NCBI RefSeq assembly: GCF_000425205.1
Contig: NZ_AULI01000001.1
Coordinates: forward strand, 186,001 to 250,000
Source: Pontibacillus halophilus JSM 076056 = DSM 19796
GTDB lineage: Bacteria; Bacillota; Bacilli; Bacillales; BH030062
Direction of reading: 5' to 3'
Length of the DNA stretch: 64,000 bases
In this document: piece after piece, positions 5,167-14,860 of the stretch
How positions within the stretch are numbered: position 1 is the stretch's first letter
Layout of the letters: the number at the start of each line of letters is the position of its first letter
The notes under the pieces: model-generated
Told to the model about the DNA's origin: nothing
The model's database searches: none
The model's input: the letters and a program-made list of their open reading frames with translations, nothing else
Program-made: the position numbers and the translations under genes

Positions 5167-6051
5167 CTATTGAAACAATTGTGTATTAAGCTGCCTCGCA
5201 ATTCGCTCACTATTTTCTCTGAGTTCAGGTACACGTTGGAAATGTGTAAGCATTCCTTGAAACAGAATCTTCTTCGGTTCTTCTAGTTGTATCTCTTGAA
5301 GCAACAGGTCAATGGTATCTTGCAAGTCCTGCTTATGATCGCCATTCATTTCAAGCTTCTCCAGTTCATGACGCATATCATAAAGCAGCTCTTCAACAAT
5401 GTCTTGATTCTTCTTTGGATACACATCATTGGCATAGGTTGCCAGAAAGGCTTCAGGCGCAATTCGAGGCTCCCCGCCTTCTTTCAGCATCCCCTGAATG
5501 GCATCATCGATTCGACGTAAGATAAACCTTGCCAGACTCTCTAAATTAATGGACACACCACTCGCCACTACCCAGCGAACGGACTCACTTACAAGGCCTT
5601 GAACAATAAGAACTCCATCTACAATGTATGGCTCGATGTCCTTCCCATACATGGACCTTAAGTGCTCACTCGTCCACTTAAAGGAAGTCTCCTTCATCTC
5701 ATATAAGAAATCATCCATTTCTTGATTTAATGAGATATTGTCCCGGATGACCATGATAATAAAGTCTCGAAATTCCCCAATGGTCTGCATTAAGACTTGA
5801 ATTTGTTTCTCCATTGTTTCGCGCGGTGTATCTCCTTCGTGTCTCGCTGCTTCAATGCGACTCTTAAGATCGACATAATAGTATTCATATATGTTTAGGA
5901 TAAAGTCTTCTTTCGATGAGAAATGCAAATAGAATGCGCCTTTAGATACCTCACTATTATCCGCAATCTCTTGAATAGAAGTGGAATGAAACCCTTTTTG
6001 AGCGAATAACTTCATGCCTGACTCAATGAGTTTCTTCTTCTTTTCATTCAT
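5167..6051 (-). CDS. TetR-family repressor of the efflux operon (YerO-like)
   Basis: The N-terminal helix-turn-helix of TetR proteins is clear at about residues 8-52 (GMKLFAQKGFHSTSIQEIA, then GAFYLHFSSKEDF). At 294 residues it is longer than most TetR regulators but close to the length of B. subtilis YerO, and the gene order tetR-adaptor-RND is the same, so it most likely represses this operon in response to an exported compound. It is the first gene of the operon, and a dyad fitting a TetR operator lies just upstream at 6098-6111. The ATG has a good AAGGAG site in front. Confidence 0.9.
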   Translation of the reverse strand: MNEKKKKLIESGMKLFAQKGFHSTSIQEIADNSEVSKGAFYLHFSSKEDFILNIYEYYYVDLKSRIEAARHEGDTPRETMEKQIQVLMQTIGEFRDFIIMVIRDNISLNQEMDDFLYEMKETSFKWTSEHLRSMYGKDIEPYIVDGVLIVQGLVSESVRWVVASGVSINLESLARFILRRIDDAIQGMLKEGGEPRIAPEAFLATYANDVYPKKNQDIVEELLYDMRHELEKLEMNGDHKQDLQDTIDLLLQEIQLEEPKKILFQGMLTHFQRVPELRENSERIARQLNTQLFQ

Positions 6052-6097
6052 GTTCTCACTCCTTCCCCTTCTGTGTCTTCTTGTTGACGGCCCATTA

Positions 6098-7450: not shown

Positions 7451-7480
7451 AAAAAAATCGCTCATCCATGGATGAGCGAT
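7451..7480 (-). terminator. Terminator after fabZ
   Basis: A perfect 22-base palindrome (TCGCTCATCCA and complement, 7458-7479) is followed on the minus strand by seven T residues, just after the fabZ stop codon. Confidence 0.9.
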
Positions 7481-7485
7481 CCCGA

Positions 7486-7917
7486 TTATTCTTTATCGCC
7501 AAGGGCGAACATGATTTCAGCTTCACATACCGTTTCTCCGTCCACGGTAGCAGTCGCTTTCCCTTTACCCATCGCTCCACGCGCTCGAGTAATTTCAACT
7601 TCTAGCGTGAGCTGGTCACCAGGCTTTACCTGGCGCTTGAAGCGACACTTATCAATGCCTGTAAAGAAAGCAAGGCGTCCTTGATTCTCTTCTTTCTTAA
7701 GCATTGCGACAGCACCTACCTGAGCAAGTGCTTCTACAATTAGGACACCTGGCATAACTGGATATCCTGGAAAATGTCCTTGGAAGAATGGTTCGTTAAT
7801 TGTAACATTCTTCTTTCCAACTGCTCGTACACCTTCTTCAAGTTCTGTAATGGTATCAACAAGTAAGAACGGGTAGCGGTGTGGGATAATGTCTTGGATG
7901 TCTGTAATATCGTACAT
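7486..7917 (-). CDS. fabZ: 3-hydroxyacyl-[acyl-carrier-protein] dehydratase FabZ
   Basis: FabZ removes water from 3-hydroxyacyl-ACP in the elongation cycle of type II fatty acid synthesis in the cytoplasm. The 143-residue hot-dog fold protein has the typical N-terminus ([12 protein letters not shown]) and the active-site segment [10 protein letters not shown] with catalytic His48, followed by Glu62 in VEALAQ. The length is normal. It is the last gene of the run flhO-flhP-EpuA-like-fabZ, as in B. subtilis (ywpB), and is closed by a strong terminator. Confidence 0.97.
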
Positions 7918-9929: not shown

Positions 9930-10931
9930 CTACACGATTTTATTCTTAGGTAGTCGGTCGATGTTTTCAAGCATCATTCCTGTCCCTTTGGCCACACAGT
10001 TCATCGGCTCTTCAGCGACAAAGACAGGTACTCTCAGTTCTTCTGCTAACAGTTGGTCTAGGCCATGAAGCATCGAACCTCCACCCGTCAGAATTACACC
10101 ACGATCGATAATATCAGCAGAAAGCTCTGGTGGTGTCTTCTCTAGCACGGTTTTCGCAGATTGAACGATGAGAGCAACGGATTCTTTCAATGATTCTTCA
10201 ATTTCTTCTGTTTTAATTGTAATCGTACGTGGAAGACCGGAAACCATATCACGGCCGCGAATATCAATCTCTTCCTGACGAGAGCCAGGGAATACAGTTG
10301 CAATCTTAATCTTAATATCTTCTGCGGTACGCTCTCCGATAAGCAGCTTATGTTTACGCTTTATGTACTGCAGAATCTCATTATCAAACTTGTCACCAGC
10401 CATCTTGATGGATGAAGCCGTCACAATATCTCCCATGGAAAGAACAGCAATATCTGTTGTCCCTCCACCAATGTCAACGACCATATTACCGCTTGGTTGG
10501 AAAATATCCATCCCCGCGCCAATGGCAGCTACTTTAGGCTCTTCTTCAAGATAGACACGCTTGCCACCGCTTTTCTCCGCCGCTTCCTTGATTGCCTTTT
10601 GCTCTACCTTCGTAATGTTTGTTGGACAGCAAATCAGCATCCTTGGCTTAGAAAAGAAGCCACGAACGTTAATCTTACTTATAAAGTGCCTAAGCATGGC
10701 CTCTGTCACATCAAAGTCTGCGATGACGCCATCTTTAAGAGGACGAATGGCTTCGATGTTTCCTGGAGTACGTCCAACCATGCGACGTGCCTCGTCCCCT
10801 ACTTCTAACACTTTTCCTGTATTTCGATCCATCGCTACAACGGATGGTTCATTAAGCACGATACCTTTACCTTTTACATGGATTAGTACATTTGCTGTAC
10901 CTAAATCTATGCCAATATCTCTAGAGAACAT
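9930..10931 (-). CDS. mbl: Rod-shape determining protein Mbl (MreB family actin homologue)
   Basis: Mbl forms membrane-attached filaments that guide cylindrical cell-wall synthesis. The 333-residue protein has the actin-type nucleotide-binding motifs: phosphate-1 (IDLGTANVLI), phosphate-2 (VVDIGGGTTDIAVL) and adenosine (ILTGGGSMLHGL). Assignment to Mbl instead of MreB rests on gene context (spoIIID-mbl-flhO-flhP, as in B. subtilis) and on the N-terminus MFSRDIGIDLGT. The ATG lies 11 bases after GGGAGG. Confidence 0.96.
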   Translation of the reverse strand: MFSRDIGIDLGTANVLIHVKGKGIVLNEPSVVAMDRNTGKVLEVGDEARRMVGRTPGNIEAIRPLKDGVIADFDVTEAMLRHFISKINVRGFFSKPRMLICCPTNITKVEQKAIKEAAEKSGGKRVYLEEEPKVAAIGAGMDIFQPSGNMVVDIGGGTTDIAVLSMGDIVTASSIKMAGDKFDNEILQYIKRKHKLLIGERTAEDIKIKIATVFPGSRQEEIDIRGRDMVSGLPRTITIKTEEIEESLKESVALIVQSAKTVLEKTPPELSADIIDRGVILTGGGSMLHGLDQLLAEELRVPVFVAEEPMNCVAKGTGMMLENIDRLPKNKIV

Positions 10932-11087: not shown

Positions 11088-11393
11088 TTAACCGGCCGTA
11101 TTGGCTGGTTCTTCCTTTACTTCTAGCACTTCCGCCCCATTTTCTGGGTGGAGTTTGTATTTTTTCTTCGTGGCTTCCCCGCCTCGTAAATGACGGATGG
11201 CTTTATGGTAATCTAAGATTTCTTTAACCTCGTTAGCCAAGTCAGGATTGATTTCTGGCAAACGTTCCGTCAGATCTTTATGAACCGTGCTCTTGGATAC
11301 GCCAAACTCTTTCGCAATCACCCTGACTGTCTTTCTGGTTTCCACAATGTATTTCCCTATCTTGATTGTTCGCTCTTTGATGTAGTCGTGCAC
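11088..11393 (-). CDS. spoIIID: Sporulation transcriptional regulator SpoIIID
   Basis: SpoIIID is a small DNA-binding protein of the mother cell that activates or represses sigma-E genes and helps turn on sigK. The 101-residue protein is very close to B. subtilis SpoIIID through residue 80, including the helix-turn-helix (about 23-41, VIAKEFGVSKSTVHKDL); the C-terminal 20 residues differ. The start codon is GTG (11391-11393) behind GGGGAGG at eight bases. A short reading frame with its own strong ribosome binding site lies 60 bases upstream, matching the 'usd' arrangement known from B. subtilis, where translation of the leader is needed for SpoIIID synthesis. Confidence 0.97.
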   Translation of the reverse strand: MHDYIKERTIKIGKYIVETRKTVRVIAKEFGVSKSTVHKDLTERLPEINPDLANEVKEILDYHKAIRHLRGGEATKKKYKLHPENGAEVLEVKEEPANTAG

Positions 11394-11453
11394 ACCACTC
11401 GCCTCCCCAAGTTGGTTGTCGTAGGTGTGAAATGAGACTTTCGGTGTGAGGGG

Positions 11454-11501
11454 CTATGTATTGGGGCATGTGTGGTCATAGTTGTTAGTTCGTGTTCTCA
11501 C
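11454..11501 (-). CDS. Leader reading frame ahead of spoIIID (usd-like)
   Basis: GTG (11499-11501) begins a 15-codon reading frame ending in TAG, preceded at seven bases by GAGGTGG, one of the clearest ribosome binding sites in the area. The peptide (MRTRTNNYDHTCPNT) is unlikely to have a function of its own. In B. subtilis translation of a small frame upstream of spoIIID is known to be required for spoIIID translation; by position this is its likely equivalent. The peptide itself shows no recognisable similarity. Confidence 0.5.
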   Translation of the reverse strand: MRTRTNNYDHTCPNT

Positions 11502-11568
11502 GCTTTTCCCACCTCAAACCTTATAGATTGCTCGGTTTGTAACAGTTTATTAACACATACGAGCGTTT

Positions 11569-11673
11569 ATGCCTAAAAAGGCAGTTAGGACAAGGCTTGG
11601 AGGGATTTCACTAGAAGAAACGAGCCATTCTTTAGAATATACAAAATGCCCAGAGTGTGGATTACCCCTCTGA
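11569..11673 (+). CDS. Candidate small protein with a CPEC motif (weak)
   Basis: A 34-codon plus-strand frame starts at ATG 11569 and ends in TKCPECGLPL, resembling half of a zinc ribbon. There is no clear ribosome binding site, and it overlaps a minus-strand frame of similar length at 11585-11686. Recorded because CPxCG is unlikely to look this clean by chance, but the evidence for translation is poor. Confidence 0.22.
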   Translation: MPKKAVRTRLGGISLEETSHSLEYTKCPECGLPL

Positions 11674-11686
11674 GCTCTTTCATCAT
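11585..11686 (-). CDS. Candidate 33-residue peptide downstream of the AimR-like gene (weak)
   Basis: A frame starting with two ATG codons begins 11 bases after the aimR-like stop codon and encodes a mostly hydrophobic peptide (KELRGVIHTLGILYILKNG...). Its place is where an arbitrium peptide gene (aimP) would be expected. It lacks a ribosome binding site, a clear signal peptide and the C-terminal xxxxGA-type hexapeptide of known arbitrium peptides, so it is only a positional candidate. Confidence 0.2.
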   Translation of the reverse strand: MMKELRGVIHTLGILYILKNGSFLLVKSLQALS

Positions 11687-11697
11687 TATGGAATTGT

Positions 11698-12690
11698 TTA
11701 AAGGTTTGATAAGCGATTTAACTCATAGAGAGGCAACTTAGCATAGAAGTGGTCAGACTGCTCATGTATGAAGCGCCCATACGCTTGTCCTAGAATCTCT
11801 ATGTCGCCTTTCGCTTTCCCAATGTAGTAGTGTTCTAAAGGAGTCGGATCTTGGATTGTCTCCAATAACGCTAGCGCCTCTTCGTTCTCGCCTTTAGCTA
11901 GTAGTAAGTGTGCCCTCTCAGCTACATCTGTCGTTGTAATGCCATTCGTTCGTCCATTGTATGCCATCACGAAAGGAATTACGCGCTTTGTGAGCACTGA
12001 TTGTAAAGAGCGGAGTTTATATTGTTGAACGAGAGAAGATGCCTCGTTTAGATGATACGTGGATTGTTCAAAGGACTCATATAGATAGGTCAAAGCTAAC
12101 GTCATATGAACTTCAGAGTTATGGACCGTTGATGTACTTTCTCTTAATGAGCGATAGGCAATCTTTCTTGCAAAGATTAACTCATTCCGCTTCCAGTGGT
12201 AATGAAGTTGGATGCGGTCTTTCTTTAATTGTAGGAACCCTTTCAACAACGATATCGGGAGTAGATCTAACTGTCGTACAAGTTCATTATACACGTCGAT
12301 GACATGAAGAGATTGCATTGCATAATGAACACGTGCCAATAGAAATTGACCGTAACACCGCTGCTCCGCTGAGAACCATTCCATAGTCTCAAGCTCTTCT
12401 CGTATAGCGGAATAAGGACTGTTCCTTGAACCTAGCAATAGCTGAAGCTCATAGAGTCTCACCCATGCTTCCTTCATCGGCTCGCCACTATTCATAAACT
12501 CTTCGTAAAGTTGGCTAAATTCCCATTCGTATCCGTTCATTTGGAGGAATTCAAGACCAGATTGTATCGTTTCATCTGTCTCTTGCTGGAGAATCATTTC
12601 TTTCAGGTAAGCTGTCGTTCGACTTTTGCCGTATACTTTCGCCCAAATTTGACTCTTGCTATGAAGCGACAGTTCCTGTTCCATCTTCAT
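11698..12690 (-). CDS. AimR-like (arbitrium receptor family) helical-repeat protein
   Basis: The 330-residue all-helical product resembles AimR, the phage peptide receptor of the arbitrium lysis-lysogeny switch. The clearest match is the C-terminus: AHLLLAKGENEEA, then HYYIGKAKGD, a Phe/Asp spacer and YAKLPLYELNRL, which follow the AimR pattern HYYxKG...DxFxxxLPLxELxxL. The N-terminal WAKVYGKSRTTAYL aligns with the start of AimR but the protein is about 45 residues shorter, and its helix-turn-helix is not obvious. Start: the frame can extend to 12708, but GGGGGAGG places the start at ATG 12688-12690. No phage gene is near; it lies between spoIIID and spoIIQ, so a chromosomal, domesticated role (perhaps in sporulation timing) is more likely than phage control. 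Confidence 0.68.
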   Translation of the reverse strand: MKMEQELSLHSKSQIWAKVYGKSRTTAYLKEMILQQETDETIQSGLEFLQMNGYEWEFSQLYEEFMNSGEPMKEAWVRLYELQLLLGSRNSPYSAIREELETMEWFSAEQRCYGQFLLARVHYAMQSLHVIDVYNELVRQLDLLPISLLKGFLQLKKDRIQLHYHWKRNELIFARKIAYRSLRESTSTVHNSEVHMTLALTYLYESFEQSTYHLNEASSLVQQYKLRSLQSVLTKRVIPFVMAYNGRTNGITTTDVAERAHLLLAKGENEEALALLETIQDPTPLEHYYIGKAKGDIEILGQAYGRFIHEQSDHFYAKLPLYELNRLSNL

Positions 12691-12777
12691 CTTCCAGCCC
12701 TCCCCCATACTTGTAGTCTAACTTTATCAAAGACTCGTTATATGGGATACGCTTTCAACAAAACCTATCAAGTATCG

Positions 12778-12815
12778 ACAAAAAAAGCCCTACTCCCGAG
12801 GAGCAAGGCTTTTGG
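12778..12815 (-). terminator. Terminator of spoIIQ
   Basis: The stem GCCTTGCTCC/GGAGTAGGGC type with a CGAG-side loop is followed on the minus strand by seven T residues, directly after the spoIIQ stop codon. Confidence 0.85.
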
Positions 12816-12816
12816 A

Positions 12817-13731
12817 TTAGGCGTTAGCCATAGAGATTGAGGACTCTGTATCTTCTGTTGACTCAGAACCATCAGGTGTTTCGTTCTCATCTGTTTGTTC
12901 TTTGTCTGTACCTTCTTCTGCATCATCAGAAGTTGGCTCTTCAGACTCATTGCCTTCTTCACCTTCAGCTGGTTGTTCAGAAGTTGGAGCTTCTTCTTTA
13001 GGCTCTTCTCCTTCTTCACGCTTGTCGCCTTCTTCTTTCGACTGATCTGTATCTCTTAGTGCATCAAATGGTTGATTGAAGAACGTTTCAGGGTCTACAG
13101 GCTGGTCATCTTTACGAAGCTCAAAGTGTACATGAACGCCATTCGCTTGACCAAATAAGTTACGTCCAGCAGTTCCAATTACATCATCTTGCTTGATTTG
13201 TGCACCGACTTCTACGGCAACTTTGCTAAGGCTCATATACTTAGTTGTGACACCATCTTGATGTGTAACTTCAACGACTTGTCCAAGTAAAGAATCTTCA
13301 AGTACTTCTGTAACCGTACCTGATAGAGAAGCCGTTACGTCAAATTCTTCTCCGTCCTGACGAGCAATGTCTACACCTTTGCTTTGGTAGTAACGATTGT
13401 TATAAAGGACGAGAGCTTGTTCTTGTTCTTCTGCGCTTGCTTCGAAATCATAGAACTTTGTTACGATAGTCGCTTCATCACCTGCTACTGGCATATGAAT
13501 GTTTTCTTGTTGGTCCATAACTGGTGCTGCTTCTTCATCGTACATAGAGTCGAGCAAGCTGTCTGTTGTTTCGTTTTGTTTCGCTTCGTCTTCATTTTGT
13601 GAATTCTGATACCAGACAACGGCTGTAAGCAATAGGGCAGCTGCGATTAAATAAACACTAGGGAAAAACCACTTCTTACGGAAAACACGTTTCCAACTGT
13701 TTTTAGAAAGGTTCTTTTCTTCCTCTCTCAT
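12817..13731 (-). CDS. spoIIQ: Stage II sporulation protein SpoIIQ (M23/LytM-like)
   Basis: SpoIIQ is made in the forespore, spans its membrane and binds SpoIIIAH from the mother cell to form the channel that joins the two compartments during engulfment. The 304-residue protein has one transmembrane helix (about 21-40) and a LytM domain (about 110-218). Of the zinc ligands, Asp121 and the HVH pair (His200, His202) are kept but the first His is Ser117 (SKGVDIA), as in Bacillus SpoIIQ proteins that have lost peptidase activity. Residues about 228-304 form an unusually long Glu/Asp/Ser/Thr-rich tail. It is followed by a strong terminator and preceded by spoIID. Confidence 0.93.
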   Translation of the reverse strand: MREEEKNLSKNSWKRVFRKKWFFPSVYLIAAALLLTAVVWYQNSQNEDEAKQNETTDSLLDSMYDEEAAPVMDQQENIHMPVAGDEATIVTKFYDFEASAEEQEQALVLYNNRYYQSKGVDIARQDGEEFDVTASLSGTVTEVLEDSLLGQVVEVTHQDGVTTKYMSLSKVAVEVGAQIKQDDVIGTAGRNLFGQANGVHVHFELRKDDQPVDPETFFNQPFDALRDTDQSKEEGDKREEGEEPKEEAPTSEQPAEGEEGNESEEPTSDDAEEGTDKEQTDENETPDGSESTEDTESSISMANA

Positions 13732-13837: not shown

Positions 13838-14860
13838 TTATTCTTTTGAAGCCGTTAATTTAGGTAGAAAATCCGAAACTTGCAGTACATCTGTTCCTTG
13901 ATAGAAATGAGAGACAATCTCGTCGTAAGTCTTTCCTTCCTGAGCCATCCCATTTGCACCGTACTGACTCATCCCTACACCGTGTCCATACCCTTTCGTT
14001 TGAAAGATGTAGTGTCCATTCTTCTCGACGACCGTGAAATCAGCCGATTGCAGCTCCAGCGCTTCACGAATGCCACGTCCTGTAAAGTCTTTCCCAGCTA
14101 CCTTCACAGTCTTAATGCGGTTTGTGGACGTCTTAACGGGCTCTGAGAATGCCGGTTGGCTGTCAGTCACCTGAACGCCTAGCCTCTCCTCAATCTGTGC
14201 TCTCGTAAACACCTTCTGGTCATGATACTTAGGAGAAGACTCATCCCAAGGACTCGATACGCTAGTTAGATAAGGGTATGGGGTCTCCCAATAATCTTCT
14301 GCATTCTCCGTTTCTCCATTAGAGGTGGAGAAGAATGCTGCTGTAATTGGCTCCCCTTCAAACGTTAGGACTTCTCCCTTTGTAGCTGCTACCGCTTGTT
14401 GAATCTTCTCCATCTTCCACTCATAATCACTTCCCCATAGTGATCGTAACTCTTTATCGTTCTTGTACACTTGATGTTCCACCGTATCCGTCACGTCTGC
14501 TCCACTTGGAAGGGCGTCCCCGTTCAATAAATGCTTAATGATGTAGGTTCTTGCCGCTAGTGATTGAGCCTTTAACGCCTCTAATTCGAAATCTGCCGGC
14601 ATTTCAGATGCAACCACACGGGACACGTAATCCTCTAGGGGAACCGATTCTTGCTGTTTCGTCTTCGCTCGATGAACGACTACCTCAACAGCAGGACCCT
14701 CTGCTTCATTCTGAACAAGGGGCTGCTTCGATACATTCCCTACTTCGACAGCTGCATCATACTTCCCGATAAATGGAATCACGATGAGTGTGGGTACGAT
14801 GAGAATAATAGCTACCAGTACCGTCACCCCAATGACTCCTGGACTCTTCCAGACCTTCAT
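13838..14860 (-). CDS. spoIID: Stage II sporulation protein D (lytic transglycosylase)
   Basis: SpoIID cuts glycan strands as part of the SpoIID-SpoIIM-SpoIIP machine that drives engulfment of the forespore. The 340-residue protein has one N-terminal transmembrane helix (about 8-30) and the amidase-enhancer/transglycosylase domain. The segment LEDYVSRVVASEMPADF contains the catalytic Glu (Glu86 here), followed by EALKAQSLAARTY, SNGETENAEDYW and the C-terminal GYGHGVGMSQYGA motif. Length and motifs are typical. It lies between murA and spoIIQ, as in B. subtilis. Confidence 0.96.
   Translation of the reverse strand: MKVWKSPGVIGVTVLVAIILIVPTLIVIPFIGKYDAAVEVGNVSKQPLVQNEAEGPAVEVVVHRAKTKQQESVPLEDYVSRVVASEMPADFELEALKAQSLAARTYIIKHLLNGDALPSGADVTDTVEHQVYKNDKELRSLWGSDYEWKMEKIQQAVAATKGEVLTFEGEPITAAFFSTSNGETENAEDYWETPYPYLTSVSSPWDESSPKYHDQKVFTRAQIEERLGVQVTDSQPAFSEPVKTSTNRIKTVKVAGKDFTGRGIREALELQSADFTVVEKNGHYIFQTKGYGHGVGMSQYGANGMAQEGKTYDEIVSHFYQGTDVLQVSDFLPKLTASKE

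Follow-up and report, generated by a model that had tools for sequence, protein, structure and literature searches.

An AimR-family receptor, predicted to lack its DNA-binding domain, between spoIIQ and spoIIID in Pontibacillus halophilus and related genera

The Rap-Phr pairs of Bacillus subtilis, in which a tetratricopeptide repeat (TPR) receptor without a helix-turn-helix (HTH) is paired with a small exported peptide, are tied to the control of sporulation by Spo0A. In the arbitrium system of the phages SPbeta and phi3T, the receptor AimR carries an HTH (residues 1-59 in SPbeta, with bases read by N30, N32 and Y35, PMC6458997; the DNA-binding domain is delimited as 1-48 in PMC6536502) and the peptides are RGA-type hexapeptides (PMC6458997). 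A Rap/Spo0E/Spo0A circuit is mentioned in PMC10075063. In the AloR-AloP system of Paenibacillus polymyxa, with many host-encoded RRNPP receptor-peptide pairs per genome, the peptide AloP13 (mature form SHGRGG) reduces expression of a neighbouring spo0E-like gene; every Alo receptor carries an HTH, and many of them lie beside spo0E-like genes (PMC7425212). Chromosomal receptors of the AimR family, or like AimR, have been described outside prophages, with Virgibacillus among the carriers (PMC9765709), and as 'subfamily 21' of Alkalihalobacilli, in a work arguing that phages took AimR from bacteria (PMC12700828). Here we analyse an aimR-like gene of Pontibacillus halophilus JSM 076056 = DSM 19796, encoded in a stretch of 64,000 nucleotides (contig NZ_AULI01000001.1, positions 186,001 to 250,000 of the forward strand; hereafter the window, whose own coordinates we use), where it lies between the sporulation genes spoIIQ and spoIIID.

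The window receptor resembles AimR of SPbeta and phi3T (PDB 5zvw, 6hp3) in its sequence profile, its whole-length TPR fold (Z about 30) and some pocket residues, and most of its syntenic relatives share with arbitrium a small peptide gene downstream. It differs from them by having no HTH, by its place on the host chromosome in a sporulation locus and by its Spo0A-like boxes, and the peptides of the relatives are of the DPxxGxxx type (about eight residues, up to 14 copies), unlike the arbitrium hexapeptides. Neither carriage by a mobile element nor a cognate peptide gene beside the receptor was found in the window. The receptor is AimR by sequence and fold; by HTH, by carrier and, in the window, by peptide gene it is not arbitrium. 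The lack of an HTH and the small exported peptide recall Rap-Phr, although the receptor has no RapH_N match and its fold match to Rap is clearly weaker. Unlike for Rap, we know of no phosphatase activity of the window receptor. Receptors of this branch perhaps work like Rap-Phr, though they are not Rap by profile. Among host pairs that act on a sporulation gene, AloR comes closest in function, although Alo receptors keep the HTH and their peptide is of another type. The accessible parts of PMC9765709 and PMC12700828 describe no spoIIQ-spoIIID location, AimR HTH loss or Spo0A boxes. We give about even chances to the reading that the gene encodes an old host pheromone receptor under Spo0A control, acting like Rap on a protein and not on DNA, and orphaned in cis in the window.

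The gene and its putative translation signal are as follows.

11698..12690, minus strand: aimR-like gene, TPR-type receptor of 330 residues with no N-terminal HTH; an alternative start at 12708 would give 336 residues
12699..12703, minus strand: GGAGG, putative ribosome-binding site for the start at 12690

The open reading frame (ORF) counted from its first ATG spans 11698-12708. We preferred the ATG at 12690 because of the GGAGG and because it alone, among three listed starts, was flagged with a ribosome-binding site. As judged by profiles, an AlphaFold2 model and fold comparison, the predicted product is a genuine AimR-family receptor. It matched NCBIfam NF038310 (lysogeny_AimR) at 107.5 bits (cut-off 70) and Pfam PF22871 (AimR) at 165.1 bits (cut-off 26.7). 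Beyond AimR, NCBIfam and Pfam searched up to E 10 gave a single sub-threshold TPR match (TPR_19) and no placement in an unrelated TPR family, and the RapH_N profile gave no match to the protein in Pfam up to E 10. The only PHROGs family to match, phrog_1728 ('transcriptional regulator'), did so with E 4e-27, the match starting at profile position 41. The model, built on an alignment of 80 sequences, has a mean predicted local distance difference test score (pLDDT) of 94.9 and the nine-TPR-like fold of AimR; all 16 Foldseek matches at E <= 0.001 were AimR. VIA-align superposed it on phi3T AimR with Z 30.6 (319 residues aligned, root-mean-square deviation 3.1) and on Rap with Z at most 20.8. A PDB search with the single window sequence was too weak and did not find AimR; a profile of 20 relatives retrieved only AimR structures (10 of 10 distinct sequences at E <= 1).

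The same model and the sequence lengths indicate that the AimR DNA-binding HTH is absent. Residue 1 of the model falls on residue 34 of SPbeta AimR in the VIA structural alignment, the start codon lies 126 bp from spoIIQ, and the stop-to-stop frame, 339 residues long, leaves room for no more than 9 beyond the 330 used. The solved AimR sequences retrieved in the PDB search of the relatives have 378 to 396 residues, tags included; at the 67 syntenic loci described below, predicted proteins have a median of 342 and whole open frames of 353. The number of residues before a fixed profile position, a measure that depends on the choice of start, is mostly 50-61 in HTH-type AimRs including phi3T and mostly 22-38 in the window branch. 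The exceptions are L002 (49 residues) and the tandem-array copies L023, L024 and L032 (44-45) within the branch, and, among HTH-type or distant rows, the short L018, L116, L127 and L129 and L019/L131 at 38. No Pfam HTH family matched any of 80 members, though Pfam may have no model for the AimR HTH.

The neighbourhood of the gene is that of a sporulation locus.

12817..13731, minus strand: spoIIQ, conserved upstream neighbour (NCBIfam NF053738)
11088..11393, minus strand: spoIIID, conserved downstream neighbour (NCBIfam TIGR02844)
13838..14860, minus strand: spoIID, context (NCBIfam TIGR02870)
9930..10931, minus strand: mbl/mreB-type gene, context (MreB family by NCBIfam)

A scan of 84,980 species genomes gave 88 confirmed loci, 80 of them named (L007, L008, L010 and L012, apparent duplicates of L034, L035, L037 and L036, were counted once). 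At 67 of the 80 the receptor lies beside spoIIQ and/or spoIIID, with both at 62; the 67 are loci with spoIID, spoIIQ, spoIIID or mbl near the receptor, and include L051 without spoIIQ and L066, L078, L089 and L099 without spoIIID in the stretch examined. The order in relatives is spoIID-spoIIQ-aimR-spoIIID-mbl. The genera with the locus include Pontibacillus, Oceanobacillus, Virgibacillus, Lentibacillus, Gracilibacillus, Sediminibacillus, Amphibacillus, Terribacillus, Ornithinibacillus, Paraliobacillus, Aquibacillus, Paucisalibacillus and Natronobacillus; the spoIIQ-spoIIID AimR is thus found in many, mostly salt-loving, genera of the Bacillaceae type. All 80 scanned and aligned members match both AimR models. 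Since NF038310 is named as a lysis-lysogeny pheromone receptor, automatic annotation may mislabel such host genes as prophage genes.

We also sampled genomes by lineage. AimR was over cut-off in 118 of 146 genomes of one family. Coordinates were listed for 116 of these, and in 109 the receptor gene is followed on its own strand by spoIIID at a distance of 0-3 kb (median 654 bp), so that at least 109 of the 146 carry a spoIIID-linked copy. Among the seven uncounted genomes, two have spoIIID on another contig (G066, G316), two have it about 7 and 10 kb off (G294, G249), and in G276, G279 and G367 the receptor is much further away. In the window's own family, AimR was present in eight of nine sampled genomes, each time with a copy at the spoIIQ-spoIIID place, and in an order-wide sample of 249 genomes it was over cut-off in 53, 14 of which have it beside spoIIID (coordinates by eye). 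The tested flanking genes in the window are housekeeping, flagellar or sporulation genes, and no tRNA was found there. The window AimR is a host gene of long standing and not phage-borne. These results confirm the observation made in the sequence-only reading, which had described an AimR-like receptor (Foldseek and Z 30.6 agree with the profiles) with a shortened N-terminus, flanked by spoIIID and spoIIQ with no phage around it, and had called for a survey of this synteny in related genera; its suggested link to sporulation gains weight from the conserved gene order and from the promoter signals that follow. Neither of the outcomes that it had named as refuting it, placement in an unrelated TPR family and recent phage remnants at the syntenic position, came about.

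12774..12780, minus strand: TGTCGAT, putative Spo0A box differing from TGTCGAA at one position, 90 bp before the start codon
12754..12760, minus strand: TGTTGAA, second putative Spo0A box with one mismatch, exactly 20 bp after the first

In B. subtilis the core Spo0A box reads TGTCGAA (PMC3485338). In an unbiased count this heptamer ranks first among all 7-mers upstream of aimR: it occurs in 50 of 68 loci, the window being among the 68 and not among the 50, and it points towards aimR in all 50 (one also has a reverse copy). Twenty loci, the window among them, carry two boxes exactly 20 bp apart with at most one mismatch each; 200 shuffles gave 0.025 such loci on average and never more than 1. 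The pair is common to four named Pontibacillus loci, to Aquibacillus, Gracilibacillus, Amphibacillus and Terrihalobacillus loci and to the window, which argues that both groups of syntenic receptors (see below) occupy one homologous locus. We also scanned six patterns in four regions (150-200 bp), the Spo0A pattern including the variant TGTCAAA. This wider pattern occurred upstream of aimR in 47 of 67 loci (shuffle mean 2.6), of spoIIQ in 18 of 66 (mean 2.1), of spoIIID in 0 of 63 and of the peptide gene in 1 of 39. A sigma-A pattern was weaker at aimR (12/67, against a shuffle mean of 4.3 and maximum of 9), and no sigma-H, sigma-E or sigma-F/G pattern exceeded the shuffle maxima upstream of aimR, the peptide gene, spoIIID or spoIIQ; this absence is uninformative because the patterns, which also missed the expected sigma-E signal at spoIIID (1/63), are insensitive. 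No fixed -10 element was clear, TATAAT-like hexamers being weakly concentrated 30 and 38-42 bp downstream of the start of the box. In the window, the TGTCGAT box comes just after a T run that ends, by eye, a hairpin behind spoIIQ, where a terminator scan listed none.

The gap between aimR and spoIIID is where most relatives encode a candidate pheromone.

11394..11697, minus strand: aimR-spoIIID gap, place of the DPxxGxxx-type peptide in relatives; here without 'DP' in any frame of this strand

In these relatives the gap contains a small ORF on the same strand, which usually has a ribosome-binding site, a hydrophobic signal and, at its C-terminus, an octapeptide DPxxGxxx (e.g., DPDLGELD, DPEYGELD, DPDYGEIG, DPGLGDMD). 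A fixed rule, drawn up after a first viewing of the gaps and applied identically to the controls, detects it at 39 of 67 syntenic loci; the reverse strand gave 1 of 67, and shuffled regions 0.45 of 67 on average. We added 13 peptides by eye (L038, L079, L087, L089 and nine Gracilibacillus loci), the shortest being candidates with putative translation starts. This gives DP-type peptides in 52 of 67 syntenic relatives, some of which deviate from DPxxGxxx (e.g., L107, L113, part of L037). A DPG motif is reported to occur widely among the peptides of AimR and those of Paenibacillaceae subfamily 08 (PMC12700828), so the octapeptides fit the family. Several precursors are multi-copy, with nine copies in Natronobacillus azotifigens and Virgibacillus sp. 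YIM 98842 and five in Lentibacillus populi and L. halodurans. Downstream of aimR in Amphibacillus sp. MSJ-3 (L089) lies a precursor with 14 tandem copies of DPEHGEI(F/S), more than the six and the eight mentioned in the accessible parts of PMC9765709 and PMC11343458, respectively. In Gracilibacillus, all nine loci (L060, L074, L076, L084, L093, L099, L100, L105, L107) have a very short ORF ending in DPDYGDIG or DPDF(G/D)DIG; it mostly has no signal sequence, which suggests that this pheromone is not exported by the Sec route. The sequences suggest that most receptors at the spoIIQ-spoIIID locus in the sampled genera own a peptide, some of unusual size.

In the window, no 'DP' was found in any frame of the receptor's strand from aimR to spoIIID, nor was a DP peptide found in the same gap of three named Pontibacillus species (L034-L036); P. 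marinus has four DPVEPPIK copies and a second ORF ending in DPDTGGMG. The sole short ORF directly behind the window aimR on its strand (11585-11686, minus strand, 33 residues) was considered as a pheromone gene and rejected: it has no evident ribosome-binding site, no DP or otherwise pheromone-like end and no counterpart in the listed gaps of relatives. The peptide might thus be made elsewhere, or the receptor might work without one. The genome has two further receptors. One, on contig C1 (251501-252478; L002/L004), lies 1.5 kb past the right edge of the window, is 38% identical and belongs to the same branch; its flanks, by eye from translations, are speE-speB and argS, and no DP peptide was found in the gap read. 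The other, on contig C4 (188598-189554; L003), has its 3' end overlapped by a signal-bearing ORF of 61 residues (L005, 5427-5612) finishing in ..QDPTVGGVG. The genome thus appears to encode a DP peptide at another locus, in what looks like a complete receptor-peptide pair that could supply the signal in trans. Additional receptors are seen elsewhere: 18 of the 109 family genomes with a spoIIID-linked copy list a second AimR 39-86 kb from spoIIID, perhaps a second conserved locus, and in Pontibacillus-type genomes three to four receptors from the HTH-less branch follow one another in tandem (G002:C4, G004:C79, G006:C2, G008:C1). The names of paralogue neighbours (speE, speB, argS, DUF1934) were assigned by eye from translations.

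In a maximum likelihood tree of 98 rows, the 82 rows of the window branch split from 16 HTH-type rows (one of which, L127, has a short frame) with 99% support in the Shimodaira-Hasegawa-like approximate likelihood ratio test (SH-aLRT), and a careful tree of 37 rows supported the same split at 100/100. Thirteen named rows, near-copies and the broken L113, were not part of the larger tree, and the set A3 contains 72 of the 80 named loci. The receptors group largely by genus in Gracilibacillus, Aquibacillus, Sediminibacillus, Amphibacillus and Paraliobacillus; grouping by genus is weaker in Virgibacillus, Lentibacillus and Oceanobacillus. The ratio of nonsynonymous to synonymous substitution rates (dN/dS) was 0.05-0.17 in all 11 species pairs of relatives, the window copy having no close relative for such a pair; the receptor is under purifying selection in these relatives. 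Five of the 11 pairs lack a peptide by the fixed rule: two are Gracilibacillus pairs, which have the short peptide, and dN/dS is 0.05-0.08 in the remaining three (Pontibacillus, Terribacillus, Oceanobacillus). Searches of mobile elements returned no relative. A scan of 2.9 million viral contigs for motifs of the HTH-less branch, which ordinary phage AimRs would escape, left 76 candidate stretches, none encoding a relative, and tblastn of the window protein matched none of 50,697 phage or 72,556 plasmid records (E <= 0.01). The phage search is weak evidence alone because an HTH-type relative also found nothing in phages.

We propose the following circuit. A rise in phosphorylated Spo0A (Spo0A~P) would act on the promoter of aimR and control both aimR and the peptide gene. 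Receptor and peptide would be made, and the peptide exported, trimmed to the octapeptide and re-imported. Binding of the octapeptide in the TPR groove would change the shape of the receptor and so alter its contact with another protein, most probably one that determines Spo0A~P or belongs to another early step of sporulation. With the HTH missing, the receptor would most likely act through protein contact, as Rap does. Its location and the Spo0A boxes point to the sporulation pathway; the circuit would work like Rap-Phr though built from AimR. The window copy could be run by a peptide from elsewhere (the candidate being ..DPTVGGVG on contig C4), act independently of peptide or be silent. Such a receptor may let cells tune sporulation with peptide signals. 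More tentatively, and with somewhat less than even chances, the whole branch may run part of the sporulation decision with an HTH-less AimR in the role of Rap, as a brake or accelerator driven by Spo0A and gated by DPxxGxxx octapeptides through protein contact.

Several results weigh against the reading as a Spo0A-controlled host receptor. The window receptor has no peptide gene found beside it, and 15 of the 67 syntenic loci are without any DP peptide. Both of its Spo0A-like boxes carry one mismatch, and exact boxes are not exclusive to the spoIIQ-spoIIID locus, being present in 4 of 13 loci of non-syntenic paralogues (two in forward orientation). Among the AimR peptide contacts, the equivalents of E300, D360, F276, F362 and L366 are retained and those of N202 and R228 are not; E300 is kept in 58 of 60 sequences and D360 in 56 of 60, and the 26 contact positions are no more conserved than other positions (p = 0.33). 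In the free tree, the syntenic receptors form two groups, a Pontibacillus-window group and the rest, although a single clade is not rejected (approximately unbiased test, p-AU 0.136), and the window copy sits on a long branch (1.32-1.46 changes per column). The gene is dispensable, since two genomes without AimR have spoIIQ adjoining spoIIID, with a gap of about 0.3 kb in G005 (the window's family) and 0.5 kb in G376 (another family). The protein matches a phage family, phrog_1728, as any AimR would, and the loci are related, so that counts over them are not independent. In favour of the reading, Rap was rare by our measure: RapH_N, a single model that may miss Rap proteins, was over cut-off in 5 of 80 genomes of the main family (B. 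subtilis scores as positive control). Three of the five are of genus g15; in the remaining two, G273 and G293, no AimR exceeded the cut-off. A member of g15, G021 (L017), groups with Terribacillus in the receptor tree, and like Terribacillus L111 and L112 it has a divergent receptor with no DP peptide in the gap.

Parts of the sequence-only reading fared less well. It had called the protein a domesticated, peptide-sensing regulator. Descent from a phage gene is not borne out, as we found no viral relative of the branch, the tree is unrooted and PMC12700828 argues for the opposite direction. Peptide sensing in this genome has no pheromone gene beside this copy in its favour, the contact positions speaking neither clearly for nor against it, and a regulator that binds DNA does not fit the missing HTH. 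An action of the receptor on sporulation is an inference.

A chromosomal AimR with no peptide of its own might listen to peptides of phages or other elements, as proposed for non-prophage AimRs in PMC9765709, where only 11% of the AimR genes lying in the chromosome outside prophages had a detected propeptide. The window copy, with no peptide gene found beside it, would suit such eavesdropping; yet 52 of 67 syntenic relatives encode an adjacent DP-type peptide, several of these are long multi-copy or very short products that a size- or signal-limited search could miss, and no viral partner of the HTH-less branch was found among phage records and viral contigs. We consider eavesdropping unlikely. 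We judge similarly improbable that the gene encodes a working pheromone receptor unrelated to sporulation that just happens to sit where gene order is conserved. The branch does have paralogues elsewhere, beside speE/speB and argS (by eye) or in tandem arrays, but Spo0A boxes are enriched at aimR (47/67) and not at spoIIID or the peptide gene.

The long branch, the mismatched boxes, the missing peptide gene and the absence of AimR from one genome of the window's family (G005) would also be expected if the peptide had been lost in this lineage and the receptor were on its way out. The frame is nevertheless intact and scores 165 bits with Pfam AimR, the three DP-less pairs remain under low dN/dS (in relatives of the window copy), and the 20-bp box pair is retained in four named Pontibacillus loci and in the window, so that decay seems to us quite doubtful. 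Control of transcription could in principle persist through an HTH-bearing partner or a DNA-binding TPR surface, given that AimR is dimeric and its TPR domain touches the DNA backbone (PMC6458997, PMC6536502) and that the N-terminus of paralogue L002 extends further, with 49 residues ahead of the reference position; with no HTH family in Pfam for any of the three AimR matches of this genome, and base reading in AimR done by the helix that is missing here, we hold this very unlikely. Finally, a remnant of a prophage or other recently acquired element, suggested by a family named from phages, an NCBI model for a lysis-lysogeny receptor and a PHROG match, is contradicted by the conserved synteny (at least 109/146 family genomes and 8/9 in the window's own family) and sits badly with the host flanks, the 0 of 76 viral stretches confirmed and the lack of phage or plasmid matches in a weak search, which leaves it hardly any probability.

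Under the preferred reading, of a Spo0A-controlled host receptor, the locus holds a host equivalent of the phage lysis-lysogeny receptor, open to testing and central to sporulation, in genomes where Rap was seldom detected. It bears on the origin of phage arbitrium and on how often the loss of the HTH turns RRNPPA receptors into proteins acting on proteins. Some 'orphan' chromosomal AimRs may own peptide genes overlooked by size- or signal-limited searches, as the peptides can be very short or come in up to 14 copies. If the reading of the whole branch is true, the Gracilibacillus signal would be internal to the cell, a timer and not a census, and phage arbitrium and the HTH-less circuit would be two offshoots of one bacterial dormancy sensor. 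A literature search, with most subscription papers beyond its reach, found AimR and spoIIQ joined nowhere, and among the matches listed none ties AimR to Gracilibacillus, Oceanobacillus, Lentibacillus or Pontibacillus. The main text of PMC10075063 names no Oceanobacillus, Virgibacillus, Lentibacillus, Gracilibacillus, Alkalihalobacillus or Halobacillus.

Some loci have further particularities. Tandem arrays also occur among HTH-type AimRs, at L122 (G013:C7:91500-101500) and L123 (G123:C1:4444000-4455000), with seven matches each, two of those in G123 being partial. Virgibacillus senegalensis (L057) has a tandem duplicate of spoIIID downstream of aimR (5809-6063 and 7455-7709), and G340 also has two SpoIIID matches. 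In Aquibacillus salsiterrae (L113, 4001-4817), the receptor is split in two and the peptide-like ORF persists downstream.

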